From the NCBI GenBank assembly GCA_011391595.1, contig JAABQG010000007.1, positions 18,615 through 82,614 of the forward strand: a DNA stretch of 64,000 nucleotides. The letters run 5' to 3'. A program made the translations under genes and the position numbers. The notes beneath the pieces are model-generated. The model was not told the origin of the DNA. It worked only from the letters and a program-made list of their open reading frames with translations, and searched no databases. This document shows positions 9,620 through 54,428 of the stretch, piece by piece. The first letter of the stretch is position 1. Each line of letters begins with the position of its first letter. The DNA is from Hydrogenophaga sp. GTDB taxonomy: Bacteria; Pseudomonadota; Gammaproteobacteria; Burkholderiales; Burkholderiaceae_C.

Positions 9620-11550
9620 GCTTTCGTCTCCGTTTGTTTGCGCGCGCCGAGGGCGGCCAGCAAACCACCGCAGACCATCAGCAGCGCGCCAGCCCAGAGC
9701 CAGCTGACGAAGGGCTTGATGTACAACTGCAAGCTCCAAGCGCCGCCCGGCAAGGGCTCCCCGAGGGCCACGTAGACGTCGCCGAAGAAACCATAGCGGA
9801 TGGCGGCTTCGGTCAGGGTCGTCCTGGAGGCCACGTAAATGCGCTTTTCAGGCAGCAACAGGGCGATGGCCTTGCCGTCACGACCGAGTTCAAGCATGCC
9901 GCGCATGGCAGAGTAATTCGGGCCTGGAACCTCGGCCGCGCCCTGGAAGACAAATTCGTAGCCGCCCAGTGTCGCCTTGTCGCCTTTGCGCATCGAAACG
10001 GTGCTTTCGCTCTGATAGGCTGAAACCAGTCCGATGCCAATGATGCCGATGGCGAGGCCGACATGGGCAAAGCCCATGCCAACCGTGCCGAGAGACAAGA
10101 AACCCGCCTCCCGCCGGCGATCAATCAGGCCGCCCAGTGTGGCAAGAATCATCCAGGCGGCAAGACCCACACCCAATGCGGCCTGCCACCTGAATTCGCC
10201 GAAGGCAAAGGGCACGGCGACCGCGAGCACCAGCGCAGCCAGTGCATGCCAGCGTACACCGCGCAGGACCGCGCCAATATTCGACTCCCGCCAGCGCAAG
10301 CGCGGCGCAATGCCCAGCAACAACAGAACCGGAACCATCATGGGCACGAAAACAGCGTTGAAGTATGGCGCGCCCACCGAGACCTTGCCGAGATCGAAGG
10401 CGTCGAGGACCAGCGGATACAGGGTGCCCAGCAGCACCGTGGCAAGTGCTGACAAAAGCAGGACGTTGCCAGTCAGGATCGCTGTTTCGCGCGAGGTCGG
10501 CTTGAAGTCACCGGTGGTCCTGGCGAGATCGCCTGCGATCTTCACAGCGTTCGCACGCTTGGCGAACAACACCAGCGAGCCCCCGATGACGATCGCCAGG
10601 AAAATCAGTATGAACAAGCCGCGTAGTGGATCCTGGGCAAAGGAATGCACCGAGGACAGAACGCCCGATCTCACCAGAAAAGTGCCCAGCAAAGACAGCG
10701 AGAACGCGCCGAGCGAGAGGAAAACGGTCCACACCCGCAAAGCACCGCGTCGCTCGGTGACTACCAGCGAATGCAAGAGCGCCGTGCCCGCGAGCCAAGG
10801 CATCAGCGAAGCGTTTTCGGCCGGATCCCAAAACCACCAGCCGCCCCAGCCCAGTTCGTAGTAGGCCCACAACGAACCGACCATGACACCCAAGGTCAGA
10901 AAGGACCACGCCACCAGCGTCCAGGGGCGCACCCAACGCGCCCAGACGGCATCGAGCCGACCGGAGATCAAAGCAGCGATGGCGAAAGCGAACGCCACCG
11001 AAAAGCCGACATAGCCCATGTAAAGCAGTGGCGGGTGGAAGATCATTCCCGGGTCCTGCAAGAGCGGGTTCAGATCGCGCCCGTTGGCCGGCGGCGGCTG
11101 CAGGCGCATGAATGGGTTGGAGGTGAACAGGATAAAGGCGAGGAAACAGGAACTGAGCAGGCCCATGACGCCGATGACGCGCGCCACCAGGTCGGCAGGC
11201 AGGCCGCGGCTGAACAACACGACGGCCAGGGTCCAGCCGCCCATCAGCGTGGTCCACAGCAGGAAAGAGCCCTCATGCGAACCCCAGGCTGCGGTGAAGC
11301 GGTACTCGATCGGCAGGTGCCGCGAAGAATGATCAGCCACATTCATCACGGAGAAATCATTGACCAGAAAGGACCAGATCAGCGCCAGGAACCCCAGCAC
11401 GACAAACAGCAGTTGCCCGGCGACGGCTCCGCGCGCCATGGCCATCCAGCCCGCCTTGGCACGGGATGCGCCTGCCAGCCCGAGGATGCCCTGGAGCAGT
11501 GCCAGTTGCAGGGCAATGATCAGTGCCACATGGCCGAGTTCTGGAATCAT
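9616..11550 (-). CDS. ccmF: Heme lyase CcmF/NrfE
   Basis: 644 aa polytopic membrane protein with about 15 hydrophobic segments. The heme-handling WWD motif is present as WGGWWFWDPAENASLMPWL (about residues 235-253). Conserved histidines occur in 'WGSHEGSFLLW' and 'MIFHPPLLYMGY'. CcmF attaches heme to CXXCH cysteines; NrfE paralogues do so at CXXCK. The gene lies downstream of the octaheme cytochrome gene on the same strand, with a strong hairpin between them, and overlaps ccmI by 4 bp. The missing ccmABCDE suggests either a split ccm system or a dedicated NrfE-like lyase that relies on a general Ccm system elsewhere (inference). Confidence 0.92.
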   Translation of the reverse strand: MIPELGHVALIIALQLALLQGILGLAGASRAKAGWMAMARGAVAGQLLFVVLGFLALIWSFLVNDFSVMNVADHSSRHLPIEYRFTAAWGSHEGSFLLWTTLMGGWTLAVVLFSRGLPADLVARVIGVMGLLSSCFLAFILFTSNPFMRLQPPPANGRDLNPLLQDPGMIFHPPLLYMGYVGFSVAFAFAIAALISGRLDAVWARWVRPWTLVAWSFLTLGVMVGSLWAYYELGWGGWWFWDPAENASLMPWLAGTALLHSLVVTERRGALRVWTVFLSLGAFSLSLLGTFLVRSGVLSSVHSFAQDPLRGLFILIFLAIVIGGSLVLFAKRANAVKIAGDLARTTGDFKPTSRETAILTGNVLLLSALATVLLGTLYPLVLDAFDLGKVSVGAPYFNAVFVPMMVPVLLLLGIAPRLRWRESNIGAVLRGVRWHALAALVLAVAVPFAFGEFRWQAALGVGLAAWMILATLGGLIDRRREAGFLSLGTVGMGFAHVGLAIGIIGIGLVSAYQSESTVSMRKGDKATLGGYEFVFQGAAEVPGPNYSAMRGMLELGRDGKAIALLLPEKRIYVASRTTLTEAAIRYGFFGDVYVALGEPLPGGAWSLQLYIKPFVSWLWAGALLMVCGGLLAALGARKQTETKA

Positions 11551-47738: not shown

Positions 47739-48878
47739 TCAGGGCCGGCTTCTCGGCTGCGTGGCTGTTGAGGGTTTCGGACGCCGCGCGCTGGGCGGCA
47801 CAAGCTGCCCGCCGAGCGCTGGCGGCGAGGGCAGCATCAGACCTTCGTGCAAGGCCACATGTTCAAGCGCAGCTTCAAAACTGGCCCGCGCGGCGCCCGC
47901 AACGCGTCTCAAATAGGCGTGCAGCTCGGCGTCGGGGGCGCTGCGGTTTTCGCATTCGGCGCTGTAGGCCTCGAAGTGCGACAGCTGCATCAGCAGTTCG
48001 GCCACGTGGCGCGGGCACTCGCAGGCGACGGTTGTTGAGAGGCCCGCGATGTCGGCCAGGGCCGCATCGTCCCAGCGGCGCGGCGGCAAGGGCTCGGTTG
48101 AAAGTGCGTTGGTGTCCACCGCAGGTCCTTGCGCCGAGGTCGCCAAGGTCGCCGTGGACAAGGCGCGCAGCCATTGCGCCAACACCGCGTCCGGCTGCGG
48201 CTCGCGCAGCAAGGCCGTGCCAGCCGTTGCCAAGACCTCGCACACGCGGTCGGCAGCGTAGCCGTAGAGCACCGCTTTCGGCAGCCCGGCCAAGGCTGGC
48301 GCAGCCGCATCGAGGGAAGCCAGCCAGCCTTCCTGCAAATGCGCTTCGTGCACGAGCAAGGCATCCGCGTCCGAGGCTCGCAGAGCAGCGGCTGCCTGCG
48401 CGGCATCGTCGAACGGGCCCAGCACCACCAGGGGCCGGCCCAGCCAGCGCAACAGCCCGGGCCGCTGCAAGCGGGCACCCAGCGCAGCGCCTATCACCGC
48501 AAGCCGCCAGGCCCGAGCAGGAAGGAGGCGGGCCGACTCTGCGCGCGGGCTCTTTTTCGTGGCGGCCTGCGCCTGCACGTGCGTGGCAGCCACGCCTTGC
48601 AGTTGCGCCATGTCCAACGTGGCCAGGCTGCCAATCGCGTGGCCGAGGTCTGTCAACTGCTTCAGCACGGCCAGTCGGCGCACATCGTCGACCGAATACA
48701 GGCGCTGGCCGCCCGGCGACAGCGCCGGTTGCGTCAATCCATAGCGCCGCTCCCAGACGCGCAGCGTCGCCACCGGCATGCGCAACATGCGAGCCACGGC
48801 GCCGCTACGGTGCATCGGCGAACTGTCTGCATCGGAGGGACGCTGCTGAGCTGGCCGAGACCTATGGTGAGTTTTCAT
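47739..48878 (-). CDS. MerR-family regulator, LitR/CarH-like
   Basis: 379 aa from ATG 48878; an upstream ATG at 48899 would lie inside the direct repeats. N-terminal MerR winged helix (about 22-90): 'SGAVARMLRMPVATLRVWERRYG', 'PGGQRLYSVDDVRRLAVLKQL'. The middle (about 115-250) looks like a Rossmann-type domain ('LVVLGPFDDAAQAAAALRA', 'DADALLVHEAHLQEGWLASL', 'KAVLYGYAADRVCEVL'), placed where CarH/LitR carry the cobalamin domain, but I see no B12 histidine motif (DxHxxG). It is divergent from photolyase genes. LitR/CarH proteins repress light-induced genes in the dark; a B12-free class exists that works with separate photoreceptors. A BLUF protein at the far end of the cluster could play that part (inference). 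Confidence 0.8.
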   Translation of the reverse strand: MKTHHRSRPAQQRPSDADSSPMHRSGAVARMLRMPVATLRVWERRYGLTQPALSPGGQRLYSVDDVRRLAVLKQLTDLGHAIGSLATLDMAQLQGVAATHVQAQAATKKSPRAESARLLPARAWRLAVIGAALGARLQRPGLLRWLGRPLVVLGPFDDAAQAAAALRASDADALLVHEAHLQEGWLASLDAAAPALAGLPKAVLYGYAADRVCEVLATAGTALLREPQPDAVLAQWLRALSTATLATSAQGPAVDTNALSTEPLPPRRWDDAALADIAGLSTTVACECPRHVAELLMQLSHFEAYSAECENRSAPDAELHAYLRRVAGAARASFEAALEHVALHEGLMLPSPPALGGQLVPPSARRPKPSTATQPRSRP

Positions 48879-48889
48879 GGTGTTTTCCG

Positions 48890-48922
48890 TTTTTGACATC
48901 GTTTTGACTCTGTTTTGACCCG
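48890..48922. promoter_or_regulatory. Three 11-bp direct repeats, predicted operator of the MerR/LitR-like regulator
   Basis: Units TTTTTGACATC, GTTTTGACTCT and GTTTTGACCCG stand head to tail at 48890, 48901 and 48912, exactly 11 bp apart. Each carries TTTTGAC; the TTGAC inside resembles a -35 element. CarH tetramers are known to bind tandem 11-bp direct repeats overlapping a -35 box. The site lies 12-44 bp before the regulator start and 54 bp before the DUF2256 start. Confidence 0.75.
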
Positions 48923-48940
48923 TATTATTCCTCTTTTTTT

Positions 48941-48952
48941 GTGATATATCAC
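48941..48952. promoter_or_regulatory. Perfect 12-bp palindrome in the divergent promoter region
   Basis: GTGATATATCAC is a perfect palindrome 18 bp beyond the direct repeats and 24 bp before the DUF2256 start codon. It contains TATA-like sequence usable as a -10 box on either strand, or a second protein site. Confidence 0.45.
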
Positions 48953-48975
48953 TAATGAACACGTTATGAATCGTA

Positions 48976-49200
48976 ATGCGATACCATCTATCCATGCCAA
49001 CCAACCTACCTCCGAGTTTCGCCGCAACCACCCTTCGGGGATACGGCGCCACGTTTCGCGGCAACAAGGCTTCGCTGCCGAGCAAGCCTTGTGCGGCCTG
49101 CGGCCGGCCCATGAGCTGGCGCCGCAGCTGGGCCAAGAACTGGGCCGAGGTGAAGTTCTGCTCACAAGCCTGTCGCCGCGCCGGGGGCCAGCGTGGCTGA
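48976..49200 (+). CDS. DUF2256 zinc-ribbon protein
   Basis: 74 aa; ATG 48994 (MPTNLPPS) is an alternative start. The DUF2256 core is clear: 'FRGNKASLPSKPCAACGRPM' then SWRRSWAKNWAEVKFCS, with CxxC (39, 42) and CxxxC (62, 66) for one zinc. Genes of this family are common partners of photolyase/cryptochrome genes (known from gene neighbourhoods); their role is unknown. Its 3' end overlaps the start of the photolyase gene by 8 bp, so they are coupled. Confidence 0.82.
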   Translation: MRYHLSMPTNLPPSFAATTLRGYGATFRGNKASLPSKPCAACGRPMSWRRSWAKNWAEVKFCSQACRRAGGQRG

Positions 49201-50785
49201 ACTGCGCGACTTGACCCTGGTGCTGGGCGACCAGCTCGACCTCGACGCCGCGGCCTTCGACGGCTTCGATGCGAGCGTTGACGCGGTGTGGATGGCCGAG
49301 GTCGCGCAGGAGTCCACCCATGTGTGGTCGAGCAAGCCACGCACGGCGCTGTTCCTGTCGGCGATGCGGCACTTCGCGCTGGCCCTGCAATCCGCAGGCC
49401 GCCCGCTTCAGTACACCCGGCTGGATGCGGCCGACAACGCAGGAAGCCTGCAAGCCCAGCTGCGGGCCGACATCCTGCGCCTGCGGCCCAAGCGCCTGGT
49501 GATGACCGCACCGGGCGACTGGCGCGTGCTGCAGGCCATCAAGGCCGTGGCCGAGGCCAACGGCCTGCCGCTGGACATTCGCGAGGACCGCCACTTCTTC
49601 TGCAGCGTCCGCGAGTTCGCGGCGCACGCCAAAGGCCGCAAATCCCTGCGCGTGGAGTATTTCTACCGCGAGCAGCGCAAACGCCATGGCGTGCTGATGA
49701 ACGGCGATGAGCCCGTGGGCGGACAGTGGAACTTCGACGCCGACAACCGCGAAGCGTTCGGCGCTGCCGGCCCAGGGGACGTGCCGCCGCGCACGGCCTT
49801 CGCGCCCGATGCCGTCACGCGCGACGTGATCGCGCTCGTGAACACCCGCTTCGCGTCGCACCCCGGCCAGCTCGACAGCTTCGCCTGGCCGGTGACCCGC
49901 GCGCAGGGGCTGCAAGCCCTGCATGCCTTCATCAAGGAGCGCCTGCCGCTGTTCGGCCGCTACCAGGACGCCATGTGGCCCGGCGACCCCTGGCTGTACC
50001 ACGCGCACCTATCGGCCGCGCTCAACCTGAAGCTGCTGAACCCACGCGAGGTGGTGGCTGCAGCCGAGGCGGCGCACCACGCCGGGCACGCGCCGCTGGC
50101 CAGCGTCGAAGGCTTCATTCGCCAGATCCTGGGCTGGCGCGAATATGTGCGCGGCATCTACTGGACCCAGATGCCCGGCTACCTGGAACGCAACGCGCAG
50201 GGCGCCCGGGAAGACCTGCCCGCGTGGTTCTGGACCGGCGCCACCGACATGGCCTGCCTGCGCGACGCCCTGGCCCAGACGCTGGCGCACGGCTACGCCA
50301 ACCACATCCAGCGGCTGATGGTCACCGGCCTGTACGCGCTGATGCTGGGCGTGGACCCCAAGCAGGTTCACGACTGGTACCTGGCGGTCTACGTCGATGC
50401 GGTGGAATGGGTCGAGCTGCCGAACACCCTGGGCATGAGCCAATACGCCGACGGCGGCGTGATGGGCAGCAAGCCGTACATCGCCACGGGCAAGTACATC
50501 CAGCGCATGAGCCCGCACTGCAAGGGCTGCCGCTACGACCCCGCGTTGCGCAGCGGCGACACCGCCTGCCCGTTCACCACCCTGTACTGGGACTACCTGA
50601 TGCGCCATGAAGCTACGCTGGCGAAGAACCCGCGCATGGCGCTGCAGGTAAAGAACGTGGCCCGCCTGACCGACGCGCAAAAACAGGCGGTGGGCGAACG
50701 CGCGGCCGCCATCCGGCGCGGCGAGGTCGCCGCTGTTGCCGGCTCTGGCGTTGACACGACCATGGAGGGCGCTCCGCATGCCTGA
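49193..50785 (+). CDS. Iron-sulfur (6-4) photolyase / bacterial cryptochrome (PhrB/FeS-BCP type)
   Basis: 530 aa from GTG 49193. The N-terminal alpha/beta domain 'LTLVLGDQLDLDAAAFDGFD' (DUF523-like start of the family) is followed by the FAD domain with 'EGFIRQILGWREYVRGIYW', 'TGLYALMLGVDPKQVHDWYLAVYVDAVEWVELPN' and 'MGSKPYIATGKYIQRMSPHC'. Four Cys at 355, 443, 446 and 459 have the same spacing as the [4Fe-4S] ligands of Agrobacterium PhrB (350, 438, 441, 454). The enzyme repairs (6-4) photoproducts with blue/near-UV light; relatives can also signal. It overlaps the DUF2256 gene before it and the FAD-domain gene after it (8 bp each). Confidence 0.92.
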   Translation: MAELRDLTLVLGDQLDLDAAAFDGFDASVDAVWMAEVAQESTHVWSSKPRTALFLSAMRHFALALQSAGRPLQYTRLDAADNAGSLQAQLRADILRLRPKRLVMTAPGDWRVLQAIKAVAEANGLPLDIREDRHFFCSVREFAAHAKGRKSLRVEYFYREQRKRHGVLMNGDEPVGGQWNFDADNREAFGAAGPGDVPPRTAFAPDAVTRDVIALVNTRFASHPGQLDSFAWPVTRAQGLQALHAFIKERLPLFGRYQDAMWPGDPWLYHAHLSAALNLKLLNPREVVAAAEAAHHAGHAPLASVEGFIRQILGWREYVRGIYWTQMPGYLERNAQGAREDLPAWFWTGATDMACLRDALAQTLAHGYANHIQRLMVTGLYALMLGVDPKQVHDWYLAVYVDAVEWVELPNTLGMSQYADGGVMGSKPYIATGKYIQRMSPHCKGCRYDPALRSGDTACPFTTLYWDYLMRHEATLAKNPRMALQVKNVARLTDAQKQAVGERAAAIRRGEVAAVAGSGVDTTMEGAPHA

Positions 50786-51986
50786 CAGCTTCGCGCCCAC
50801 ACTCGCGGCCGCGCACGACCGCATCGCCGCCGTGCGGCCGACCGCCTACGCCCGCACGCGCAACGCGCTGGACGGCGCGGTAACGGGGCTGTCGCCCTAC
50901 ATCACACATGGTTTCGTCACGCTGACGGATGTACTGGCCGGCGTCGCGGAGCGCCAGCCGCTGGACATCCAGCACAAGTTTGTCTTCGAACTCGGCTGGC
51001 GCGCCTACTTTCGCCACGTCTGGCAGCAGCGCGGCGACGCCATCCTGCGTTCGCTGCACGACGGGCTGCTGCCCGACGATGCCTACGCCCGCGAGCTGCC
51101 GGCCGACATCCGGCAGGGCCGCACCGGTGTGCCAGTGGTGGACGAGGCGGTGCGCACGCTGTACGCCACTGGCATGCTGCACAACCACGCCCGCATGTGG
51201 CTGGCCAGCTACATCGTGCATGTGCGCAAGGTGCACTGGCGCGCCGGCGCCGACTGGCTGTACGGCCACCTGCTCGACGGCGACCTGGCCAGCAACCACC
51301 TCAGCTGGCAGTGGGTGGCTGGCACCGGCAGCCGCAAGCCCTACCTCTTCAATGCCGAGAACGTGGCCCGGTATGCCCCGGCGCCCTGGCACAGCCCCGG
51401 CAGCGTGATCGACACGTCCTATGAGGCGCTAAACCACCTGGCGCGCCAGCCGGCCCCGCCTGCGGCCGGCGCTGGCGCGGTCGCGCCCGGCGCGGGGGAC
51501 CCTGCGGAGCCGGTCCTGCTCGGCGCGCCGCCCGACGACGCGCAGTCGTCGGCCCCAGACCCCCTGCTCGCGAGGGGCCGCGACGTCTGGCTGGTCCACC
51601 CGTGGAGTCTGGGTGCACCGCCGGCGCTGCCGGCTGACACGCTGGTGCTGGGCCTGCTCATGAGCGACTTCCACCGCGCCTGGCCGTGGAGCGAACGGCG
51701 CTGGCGCTTCGTGGGCACGCGCATGGCCGAGCTGACCCCGCAGTGCTGGCACGGTGACGCGGCGGCCATCGGTGCCGCGCTGGCCGGCGCGCGCCGCGTG
51801 CGCGGCTTCGGCGAGCCGCACCTGGCGCCGTGGCTGGCCCGCTGGGCCGAGTGCCACGCGGCGCCGGCGCTTTTTCCCCCGGTCACACGGCGTTGCGACT
51901 CGTTTTCGCAATGGTGGACCAGCGCCTCACGCGGGCTGTCAACCGCCGCCGACCTGCTGGCCGTGAACGAGGTGCCCGCGTGGTGA
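50778..51986 (+). CDS. Photolyase-like FAD-binding protein with C-terminal alpha/beta domain
   Basis: 402 aa from ATG 50778 (overlaps the photolyase stop). Residues 1-215 are a complete photolyase/cryptochrome FAD domain: 'TGLSPYITHGFVT', 'FVFELGWRAYFRHVWQQ', 'TGVPVVDEAVRTLYATGMLH' NHARMWLASY, and 'LLDGDLASNHLSWQWVAGTG'. Canonical photolyases have the antenna alpha/beta domain first; here no such domain precedes it. A Pro/Ala-rich linker (225-265) leads to a C-terminal domain (267-400) starting 'RDVWLVHPWSLGAPPALPAD' 'TLVLGLLMSDFHRAWPWSERRWRFV' that looks alpha/beta, as if the two photolyase domains were swapped. Repair activity unproven. Confidence 0.82.
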   Translation: MPDSFAPTLAAAHDRIAAVRPTAYARTRNALDGAVTGLSPYITHGFVTLTDVLAGVAERQPLDIQHKFVFELGWRAYFRHVWQQRGDAILRSLHDGLLPDDAYARELPADIRQGRTGVPVVDEAVRTLYATGMLHNHARMWLASYIVHVRKVHWRAGADWLYGHLLDGDLASNHLSWQWVAGTGSRKPYLFNAENVARYAPAPWHSPGSVIDTSYEALNHLARQPAPPAAGAGAVAPGAGDPAEPVLLGAPPDDAQSSAPDPLLARGRDVWLVHPWSLGAPPALPADTLVLGLLMSDFHRAWPWSERRWRFVGTRMAELTPQCWHGDAAAIGAALAGARRVRGFGEPHLAPWLARWAECHAAPALFPPVTRRCDSFSQWWTSASRGLSTAADLLAVNEVPAW

Positions 51987-52396
51987 CCCCGACAAGCCCT
52001 GACGCGGGCGCCGAAACGCAAGCGCTGACCGTTCTCTACGACGGCGCCTGCCCGCTGTGCCGGCGCGAGATCGGCATCTATCGCGGCCTGCAGCCGCTAC
52101 GCCCGGACACCCCGGTGTGTTTTACCGACGTCAGCGACACCGCGCTGCCTTTGCCGCAGGGCACCACGCGCGAGCAGTTGATGGCGCGCTTCCATGTGCG
52201 CGCCGCCAACGGCCAGTTGCTCAGCGGCGCGCAAGCCTTCCTGGCGCTGTGGGCCACCCTGCCCGGCTGGCGCTGGCTGGCGTTGGCCGGCCGGCTGCCG
52301 GGGGCAGCCTGGGCGATGGAACGCGTCTACCGGCTGTTCCTGCGCGCGCGCCCGGCGCTGCAGCGATGGGCTTCCCGCCTGGACCGTCCGGCCTGA
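51983..52396 (+). CDS. DCC-family (DUF393) thiol-disulfide-like protein
   Basis: 137 aa from GTG 51983, overlapping the preceding stop (GTGA). The family motif is YDGACPLCRREIGIY (Cys23, Cys26). 'GAQAFLALWATLPGWRWLAL' and a C-terminal amphipathic region follow. DUF393 proteins resemble thioredoxins with a CxxC and are often beside photolyase or cryptochrome genes. Redox partner unknown. Confidence 0.82.
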   Translation: MTPTSPDAGAETQALTVLYDGACPLCRREIGIYRGLQPLRPDTPVCFTDVSDTALPLPQGTTREQLMARFHVRAANGQLLSGAQAFLALWATLPGWRWLALAGRLPGAAWAMERVYRLFLRARPALQRWASRLDRPA

Positions 52397-52434
52397 GCCG
52401 TAACCCGGCCCCTCACTTCCCTGGAAATCAAGAC

Positions 52435-53166
52435 ATGACTTCAATTGCCCTCATCACCGGCGCGAGTGGCGGCATTGGTCGCGCCCTGGTCCGCCAGTTG
52501 CACGCCCAGGGTTGCCGTGTCGCCGCCGTGGGGCGCGAATCGAGTCGCCTCGCCGACGTAGAAGCTGACGTGCGCATCGCCGCTGACACCACCACGCCCG
52601 AAGGCGCTGTACTGGCCATCAAAGCTTGCCAGGAGGCCCTCGGCGCTGCGCCCACGCTGCTGGCGCACTGCGTCGGCAGCACGCTGATCGCGCCCTTGCA
52701 CCGCACCCGGGTCGACGCCTACCGCGAGGTGCTGCGCGTCAACCTCGACAGTGCGGTGTTCATGCTGCAGGCCTGGATCGCCGCGCTGCAGGGCGGGCCC
52801 GGGGCCGCGGTGTTTGCCAGCTCGGTGGTGGCGCGCATCGGCGTGGCCAACCACGAGGCCATCGCCGCGGCCAAGGGCGGCGTCGAGGCCCTGGTGCGCA
52901 GCGCGGCTGCCACCTACGCGACGCAAGGTGTGCGCGTGAACGCCGTGGCGCCCGGCATGGCCGAAACCCCGATGGCCGCCAGCATGCTGAAAATGCCCGC
53001 GATGCGCGAAGGCGCCGCTCGGCAGTATCCTCTGGGCGGCGTCCAGACCGCCGACCAGGTGGCCGACGCGATGGCCTGGCTGCTCGGCCATGGCGCGGCC
53101 CGCCTGACCGGTCAGATCCTCGCGGTCGATGGCGGCTTCACCACCGTGCGGCCGCTCGTGAAGTAA
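52435..53166 (+). CDS. SDR-family protein lacking the catalytic tyrosine
   Basis: 243 aa. Cofactor site TGASGGIG at the N-terminus; 'AHCVGSTLIAPLHRT' takes the NNAG place; Ser in 'FASSVVARIG'. Where SDRs have YxxxK, this protein reads IAAAK (…NHEAIAAAKGG), so Lys is kept and Tyr is replaced by Ile. The C-terminal 'AVDGGFTTVRPL' is normal. It may bind NAD(P)(H) without classical catalysis, or use another residue. SDR genes are recurrent companions in photolyase clusters. It lies 38 bp after the DUF393 gene. Confidence 0.82.
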   Translation: MTSIALITGASGGIGRALVRQLHAQGCRVAAVGRESSRLADVEADVRIAADTTTPEGAVLAIKACQEALGAAPTLLAHCVGSTLIAPLHRTRVDAYREVLRVNLDSAVFMLQAWIAALQGGPGAAVFASSVVARIGVANHEAIAAAKGGVEALVRSAAATYATQGVRVNAVAPGMAETPMAASMLKMPAMREGAARQYPLGGVQTADQVADAMAWLLGHGAARLTGQILAVDGGFTTVRPLVK

Positions 53167-53193
53167 GCTGTAGTCACAACACCGGAGTTACCG

Positions 53194-53385
53194 ATGAGCG
53201 AAGACCCTCGCTGCTGCGGCAGTGGCACCTGCATCATTGACCTGGAGGGCCGCTGCTGGTGCGGCCAGCAATGGGACGGCCGGCAGATGTGCAAAGCGCC
53301 ACTGGCCTCAGCCCCGCCAGCCCTTCCTGCCGATGACAAGACGCCAAAGCGGCCGCAGTCTGACGGGAAGGCTGACGCGCGCTGA
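53194..53385 (+). CDS. Small Cys-rich protein, 63 aa
   Basis: Six cysteines in the first 33 residues: 'EDPRCCGSGTCIIDLEGRCW' CGQQWDGRQMC, then a Pro/Ala/Lys-rich tail. The Cys spacing suggests a small zinc or iron-sulfur site, or a disulfide knot. Only 27 bp after the SDR gene and on the same strand, so probably the last gene of the light cluster operon. No function known to me. Confidence 0.68.
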   Translation: MSEDPRCCGSGTCIIDLEGRCWCGQQWDGRQMCKAPLASAPPALPADDKTPKRPQSDGKADAR

Positions 53386-53396
53386 GTCTCCGAGGC

Positions 53397-53819
53397 TCAG
53401 ATCGAGGGCGCCGGCACCGGCTGGCCCCCGGCGATGAGTTCGTCAATGCGCGCCATGACCTGCGCGCCGCTGGCCGAATAAGGATCAAATTCCGGCCACA
53501 CGATCTTCGATTGCGGGTCCACGTCGGACAGGCTGACGCGCGCCATCGACCATTGCCCGTAGCGTCGCGCGGAAATGCTTTCGCAGTGAATCAGCTCCAG
53601 GGCCGTGTGGCGCGGATCGGCGGCGATGCGCGCGTAGAGTCGTGTCACCGCGCCGCGCTCGCCTTCCAGCGCCTGCAGGAACACCCCTTGTCCCTCGCAG
53701 AGCACACCGGTGATGGCGTTCTGGGTGTTCCAGGCGTGGGCCTTGCGCAAAATCGAATCGGTCAGTGTGCCGGTCTGCGCATCGACCGCCTTGCTCACGT
53801 AAATCAAGCGGATCAGCAT
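53397..53819 (-). CDS. Short BLUF-domain blue-light photoreceptor
   Basis: 140 aa. BLUF flavin-binding signature is complete: Tyr7 in IRLIYVSKA, Asn31 in 'AWNTQNAITGVL', Gln49 in GVFLQALEGE and Trp90 in YGQWSMARV. These match Tyr8, Asn32, Gln50 and Trp91 of PixD, the residues that form the light-switched hydrogen-bond network around FAD. There is only a short C-terminal helix region, so it must signal by protein-protein contact. It is convergent with the light cluster and ends 11 bp from the Cys-rich gene. Confidence 0.93.
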   Translation of the reverse strand: MLIRLIYVSKAVDAQTGTLTDSILRKAHAWNTQNAITGVLCEGQGVFLQALEGERGAVTRLYARIAADPRHTALELIHCESISARRYGQWSMARVSLSDVDPQSKIVWPEFDPYSASGAQVMARIDELIAGGQPVPAPSI

Positions 53820-53882
53820 GGTCCCGTTGTCCTCGAAATGTCTGCGCCCGGGCGCAATACCAGGCCGCGAACAGCGGCCCCT

Positions 53883-54428
53883 TCACGACTTGCGGATCAC
53901 GCCGCAGGCCACGCGCGGGCCAGAATTGCCGGTGGGCTGCGTGTAGTAGTCGTCAGGGTCCCGGTGCACGATCAGGCCCTTGTCCACGATGCTGGTAGCG
54001 CCGGGCTTGAGCGTCAGGCTCGTGGAGATGAGTTCGAACTTTGCCACGCCCTGCGCGTCAGCCTTCAGTGAAGGCAGGTCGCCCACATGGTGCTCGGCCC
54101 GGCCGTACTGGCCATGCGCGTTGCCGCCCGGATTGAAGTGGCCGCCCGCGCTCATGCCGTCGCCGCTGGAGCAGTCGCCGTTCTCATGCACATGGAAACC
54201 ATGCTCGGCATTGGGCTTGAGGCCACGCACTTCGCCGGTGACCAACAACTTGTCGCCCGTCTGGACAAAAAACATGGTGCCGCTGGCCGTGTTGCCGCGG
54301 GTGGCCTTCAGGTCGGCTGAGGCCGTTACATCGGGCTTGGGCGCGGCGCAGGCCACCAGGCCCAGTAGCAGGGCTGCCGACGAAAGCACGCGGACCAAGG
54401 AAAAAGCGAGGGGGTTGGGTGAAGTCAT
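53883..54428 (-). CDS. sodC: Cu/Zn superoxide dismutase, lipoprotein
   Basis: 181 aa with a lipobox (LLGLVAC, Cys27), so membrane-anchored in the periplasm. Metal-site signature 'HGFHVHENGDCSSGDGMSAG' GHFNP, bridging His in 'YGRAEHHVGDLP', and the C-terminal 'GPRVACGVI' with the disulfide Cys are all present. It removes extracytoplasmic superoxide. It lies next to the BLUF gene on the same strand (63 bp gap), a sensible neighbour for photo-oxidative stress though this may be chance. Confidence 0.93.
   Translation of the reverse strand: MTSPNPLAFSLVRVLSSAALLLGLVACAAPKPDVTASADLKATRGNTASGTMFFVQTGDKLLVTGEVRGLKPNAEHGFHVHENGDCSSGDGMSAGGHFNPGGNAHGQYGRAEHHVGDLPSLKADAQGVAKFELISTSLTLKPGATSIVDKGLIVHRDPDDYYTQPTGNSGPRVACGVIRKS

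Follow-up and report, generated by a model that had tools for sequence, protein, structure and literature searches.

The stretch of DNA analysed here (hereafter the window) comprises 64,000 nucleotides of a Hydrogenophaga sp. contig and carries, between positions 47739 and 53819, a compact cluster in which a MerR-type regulator is divergently oriented with respect to a run of genes that includes two photolyase-fold proteins, and which is closed by the gene for a short BLUF protein. The control of this cluster, the putative means by which its regulator senses light and the place of the BLUF protein are the subjects of the present report. The genes of the cluster and the neighbouring superoxide dismutase gene are as follows:

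47739..48878, minus strand: MerR-type regulator, 379 residues from the ATG at 48878 (PF13411, E 1.9e-13)
48976..49200, plus strand: DUF2256 protein (PF10013, E 1.1e-18)
49193..50785, plus strand: iron-sulphur (FeS) bacterial (6-4) photolyase of the PhrB/CryB type (PF04244, E 7.4e-75; PDB 5kcm, E 1.6e-159)
50778..51986, plus strand: FAD_binding_7 photolyase-fold protein, with the FAD-binding domain first and a predicted alpha/beta antenna-like domain second
51983..52396, plus strand: DCC1-like thiol-disulfide oxidoreductase (PF04134, E 4e-24)
52435..53166, plus strand: short-chain dehydrogenase/reductase (SDR; PF13561, E 2.9e-43)
53194..53385, plus strand: 63-residue Cys-rich peptide, the last gene of the putative operon, with similar open reading frames in several related loci
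53397..53819, minus strand: short BLUF protein of 140 residues (PF04940, E 7e-28, 97 bits)
53883..54428, minus strand: Cu/Zn superoxide dismutase, sodC (PF00080, E 5.5e-43)

An earlier note on this DNA had described the first eight of these genes as all pointing to light. All eight are present, with open reading frames and Pfam families in agreement, but the description is overstated, since the DUF2256, DCC, SDR and Cys-rich proteins alone do not point to light; a Pfam search assigned the last of these to no family. The intergenic distances along the plus-strand run from the DUF2256 gene to the Cys-rich gene are -8, -8, -4, +38 and +27 bp. Because these genes (the second to the seventh of the cluster) overlap or are separated by gaps of only 27-38 bp, they plausibly form a single operon, as the note had also held. 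The BLUF gene is convergent with this operon, whose end is 11 bp away, and follows sodC in the same orientation after a gap of 63 bp, so that it could be co-read with sodC and not with the operon. An inverted repeat GGCCGC/GCGGCC with no T-run was seen by eye in the 63-bp gap between sodC and the BLUF gene (53820-53882), and terminator calling in this gap returned none.

Based on the PF13411 match and an AlphaFold2 (AF2) model (predicted local distance difference test 81, predicted template modelling score 0.41), the regulator is composed of a helix-turn-helix (HTH) domain at about residues 22-108, a Rossmann-like domain at residues 122-250 and a C-terminal helical hairpin with a Cys/His motif, C286-x-C288-P-x-H291 ... 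C309 ... H320. The five Cys and His residues are invariant in all 63 aligned relatives (70 loci minus seven duplicates, with related species still included), as they are in the 32-row alignment A1, and the full motif is present in the homologs of Burkholderia anthina, Caballeronia and Methylomagnum, the first two of which are 37% and 43% identical to the window regulator, respectively. A class-wide search of 274 genomes, with a query alignment (A2) that contained one BluR row, matched the regulator in 63 genomes, but in 46 of these the match did not reach the C-terminal part and mostly covered the HTH only. The C-terminal part was matched in 17 genomes including that of the window, and CxCPxH was found in 14 of the 15 sequences retrieved from the 16 others, G631, which stops inside the match, being left out. 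Four orthologs of 207-255 residues (L059, L060, L062 and L064) retain the HTH and the Cys/His module and lack the middle Rossmann-like domain, which suggests that the module is the functional core of the protein. These minimal regulators may also be better suited to biochemistry.

The statement of the earlier note that the regulator lacks the cobalamin motif holds: the DxHxxG motif is absent from it, and a Pfam scan up to E 0.1 matched the HTH only and no B12-binding family. With neither B12-binding domains nor DxHxxG, it was rejected as a class I LitR/CarH photoreceptor of the adenosylcobalamin (AdoB12) type. It shares with CarH of Thermus thermophilus, a class I LitR, the HTH (PDB 5c8d, E 2.7e-9) and the Rossmann-like domain, but this domain precedes the helical part in the model of the window regulator, which is the reverse of the order in CarH.

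The region between the regulator and DUF2256 genes contains the following predicted elements:

48893..48921, minus strand: predicted operator, three TCAA at 11-bp spacing (48918, 48907, 48896), just 3' of the merR -10 box
48924..48952, minus strand: candidate sigma-70-like merR promoter, GTGATA-N17-AATAAT, a consensus match only
48955..48969, minus strand: second predicted operator half, two TCAT at 11-bp spacing (48969, 48958), beside the DUF2256 start

The promoter scan gave one consensus match against a shuffle mean of 0.2. Direct repeats of TCA[A/T] at 11-bp spacing were found upstream of merR in 34 of 51 non-redundant regions (the 63 minus 11 that could not be anchored and one redundant member of the remaining 52), against 0-7 of the 51 for pairs spaced at any other distance between 6 and 19 bp and a mean of 1.4 (maximum 7) in Markov shuffles. 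In many loci the first repeat lies, by eye, a few bases 3' of the -10 box. The operators of CarH are 11-bp direct repeats, and the three predicted copies in the window are of this kind; the repeats are likely to be the operator of the regulator. No copy of them was found upstream of the BLUF gene, either by eye or in a strict-pattern search of its own genome.

Light-responsive MerR proteins are of three kinds in the excerpt of PMC9758184 used here, namely AdoB12-dependent LitR/CarH, the BluR-BluF pair, and PmlR2 acting with a short LOV protein. The same excerpt describes class III LitR of Burkholderia as changing its absorption with light and showing no similarity to a functional domain, and terms its mechanism novel, with the chromophore left unnamed there; this LitR requires a non-B12 chromophore according to the excerpt of PMC6739363. 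The window regulator resembles class III LitR of B. multivorans (Sumi et al. 2018), both being from the Burkholderiales, with a LitR-type HTH and a C-terminus without a known domain. The B. anthina homolog, from the same genus as that protein and carried on a Burkholderia plasmid, has DUF2256, folE, SDR and photolyase genes within 8 kb, a neighbourhood akin to that in the window; the window regulator differs in its longer N-terminus, the order of the genes and the BLUF gene beside the operon. The Caballeronia plasmid homolog adjoins folE and SDR genes. About 7 kb from this regulator-folE unit (L157, 843-1220 and 8004-8972) lies a gene for photoactive yellow protein, yet another photoreceptor type near this LitR-like family.

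PmlR2 of Pseudomonas mendocina, a class II LitR that works with SB-LOV, is likewise a B12-free LitR that governs light-inducible genes and has a separate short flavin photoreceptor nearby, and the photolyase and SDR genes beside its paralog pmlR1 are features shared with the window. The window regulator was rejected as a class II LitR, however, since it has no B12-binding_2 domain and the class II operator TGTACA-N12-TGTACA (PMC9758184, in excerpt) is absent from positions 48879-48975; moreover, BLUF replaces LOV. BluF of Escherichia coli antagonises the MerR-type repressor BluR (excerpts of PMC3509220 and of PMC9758184, the latter terming it 'type ii'), and the two genes lie close together, as in the window. 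BluR shares only the HTH with the window regulator (38% over 63 residues), which is thus ruled out as an MlrA-like BluR relative beyond that domain, the MlrA_helical and MlrA_C domains of BluR being unmatched in it. The E. coli BluF carries an EAL domain (PMC3509220, in excerpt), whereas the window BLUF is 140 residues long, and the known target of BluR is ycgZ-ymgABC, not photolyases. The earlier note had held that a BLUF-MerR pair controlling photolyases would be a new wiring; a BLUF protein that opposes a MerR-type repressor is already known, so that novelty would be confined to the pairing with a LitR-like regulator and with photolyases. In Vibrio cholerae, a predicted operon of a MerR-like gene (VCA0056) and phr has a role in the blue-light response, the MerR-like gene acts in the photo-oxidative response, either jointly with ChrR or parallel to it, and the photolyase/cryptochrome proteins are named as the only blue-light receptors (excerpt of PMC5241685). 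There the two genes share a predicted operon, whereas the merR gene of the window is divergent from the photolyase operon.

The gene-neighbourhood survey proposed in the earlier note showed that the core cluster recurs: in 32 of the 63 loci a PhrB-type photolyase gene lies no more than 8 kb from the regulator. A BLUF gene was found within the same distance in only five (those of the window, G118, G019, G081 and G037) and in none of the other 58. Where the flanks are nearly complete (44 loci), the photolyase is present in 23 and BLUF in three. The window BLUF has Y7, N31, Q49, W90 and M92, as found in BLUF photoreceptors; we take these to be the core residues, with Y7 and Q49 the flavin-site Tyr and Gln. 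Proteins at least 64% identical to it are present, among 399 genomes, in its own genome (two), G118, G345 and G117. A close ortholog (79%) near a regulator was found elsewhere in G118 only, a metagenome-assembled genome (MAG) of Aquincola, where it lies on the opposite side of the regulator in a different arrangement, with cydAB-like genes between by eye. Six neighbours on either side of the copies in G345, G117 and contig C62 of the same genome as the window include no cluster gene; the C62 paralog (L014, 6190-6612; 68% identity) is, by eye, near a form II RubisCO-like gene. In the window 497 bp separate the convergent Cys-rich and sodC genes; in G050 and G123, which have no BLUF gene between them, the gap measures 58 and 65 bp, respectively; the locus of G050, a 78% complete MAG of the same genus, also lacks the DUF2256, FeS photolyase and SDR genes. 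The window BLUF is thus either a clean insertion between the two genes or the remnant of losses in the relatives.

The anatomy of the locus gives good support to a photorepair cluster under the control of a class III LitR-like regulator, and the most likely sensor is the C-terminal module of that regulator itself. The fuller reading, to which an even chance is assigned, is that a divergent class III LitR-like repressor senses through its Cys/His module and controls the photorepair operon by means of the 11-bp repeats, with BLUF as an accessory. In the dark, the MerR protein would keep the operon off, binding the repeats in the shared promoter as head-to-tail units by analogy with CarH. A cofactor held by the Cys/His residues might be released or altered by light, and the C-x-C-P-x-H...C...H module would in this way sense light or light-made oxidants, with derepression of the second to the seventh genes as the consequence. 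Since the BLUF gene is an insertion that most related clusters lack, its product is probably an extra input and not the missing switch.

Several observations weigh against this reading. In the AF2 model, C286, C288 and H291 lie near the opposite end of helix 288-311 from C309 and H320, so that a single site would need a second subunit, and the motif could be structural, binding zinc for example. The TCAW motif was picked after inspection of the upstream regions, and related regions are not independent, for which reason the comparison across spacings is the fairer control; the opposite strand of the repeats reads TTGAC, which resembles -35 boxes. The link to class III LitR of B. multivorans runs through same-genus homologs only. 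In a family set of 200 genomes, with the regulator in 42, an FeS photolyase in 101 and a BLUF domain in 178, BLUF is near the regulator in five of 41 loci (G092, a partial match, being left out), where 0.27 would be expected from BLUF density (Poisson 1e-5). The G118 BLUF is 2.6 kb from its regulator, and some BLUF is present in 41 of the 42 regulator-positive genomes against 137 of the 158 others (Fisher p 0.051).

The enrichment near regulators and the G118 ortholog favour the proposal of the earlier note that BLUF is the sensor, the lit protein binding MerR and lifting repression of the photolyase operon in the manner of BluF-BluR (PMC3509220, in excerpt) and SB-LOV-PmlR2 (PMC9758184, in excerpt), and the core residues retained by the window BLUF are in keeping with it. 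The proposal is nonetheless unlikely, being weakened by the invariant module of the regulator itself, the 58 loci in which no BLUF was found within 8 kb, the two relatives with regulator, Cys-rich gene and sodC but no BLUF (one of which, G050, has lost other genes too), the apparent insertion and the want of an operator upstream of the BLUF gene. In addition, the other BLUFs of 64-68% identity are located elsewhere, the precedent BluR differs in its C-terminal domains, and the enrichment may partly reflect a general clustering of light genes. One regulator locus (L057) adjoins, by eye, genes resembling bacteriochlorophyll genes, a case in point for such clustering. What the anatomy does uphold of the proposal is a LitR/CarH-like regulator, free of B12, that is encoded divergently from a photolyase operon.

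Somewhat less likely still is a photoreceptor encoded elsewhere and acting in trans, the local BLUF being redundant or serving sodC. A candidate is the short BLUF encoded directly 3' of folE (GTP cyclohydrolase I) on contig C52 of the same genome (L013, 5712-6903); in G019 (L078) the regulator is followed by the same folE-BLUF pair on one strand within 3.2 kb, and in Pseudomonas the region of class II LitR and SB-LOV also contains folE. Against this, BLUF is near-universal in the family, which makes its co-occurrence with the regulator weak evidence, and a strict operator search at the folE-BLUF pair of C52 found none. Equally doubtful is a regulator that responds to redox or metal only, with light indirect or irrelevant. 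The Cys/His-rich module, the DCC, Cys-rich and sodC neighbours and the MerR-like protein encoded with phr in V. cholerae, with its part beside or with ChrR in the photo-oxidative response (PMC5241685, in excerpt), are consistent with it; photolyase and folE neighbours across lineages and the light-dependent absorption change of class III LitR (PMC9758184, in excerpt) argue otherwise. The poorest chance is given to one repressor with two light inputs, in which a B12-free LitR would read the CarH-like 11-bp repeats, its Cys/His hairpin would be a new chromophore or cofactor site, BLUF would be a second, lineage-added anti-repressor specific to blue light, and a photolyase with circularly permuted domains would be among the targets.

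The Cys/His module offers a few residues for exchange and the 11-bp repeats a defined DNA target, so that light sensing by a B12-free LitR becomes directly testable. If BLUF also acts, the cluster would be an example of a stand-alone photoreceptor added to an existing light switch.

The alignment of the cluster's FeS photolyase with PhrB (PDB 5kcm) covers almost the entire protein, its DPRP domain is matched by PF04244, and cysteines 355, 443, 446 and 459, presumably the FeS cluster ligands, are present. The second photolyase-fold protein (50778-51986) may have a swapped domain order: its FAD-binding part matches already at residues 20-216, which leaves no room for an antenna domain ahead of it as in canonical photolyases and cryptochromes. 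If confirmed, such an order would mean that a well-studied repair enzyme has been rearranged in nature. A second FeS-type photolyase is encoded on contig C53 of the same genome (L012, 4883-6454), and neither a MerR nor a BLUF gene lies right next to it; about 4 kb away, a BLUF-domain protein (10307-11314) is, by eye, without the usual N-terminal Tyr and may be insensitive to light. Elsewhere, a BLUF relative (55% identity; L149, 5245-10203) lies directly 3' of acsF-, crtI- and crtB-like genes, by eye, in a photosynthesis-like cluster.

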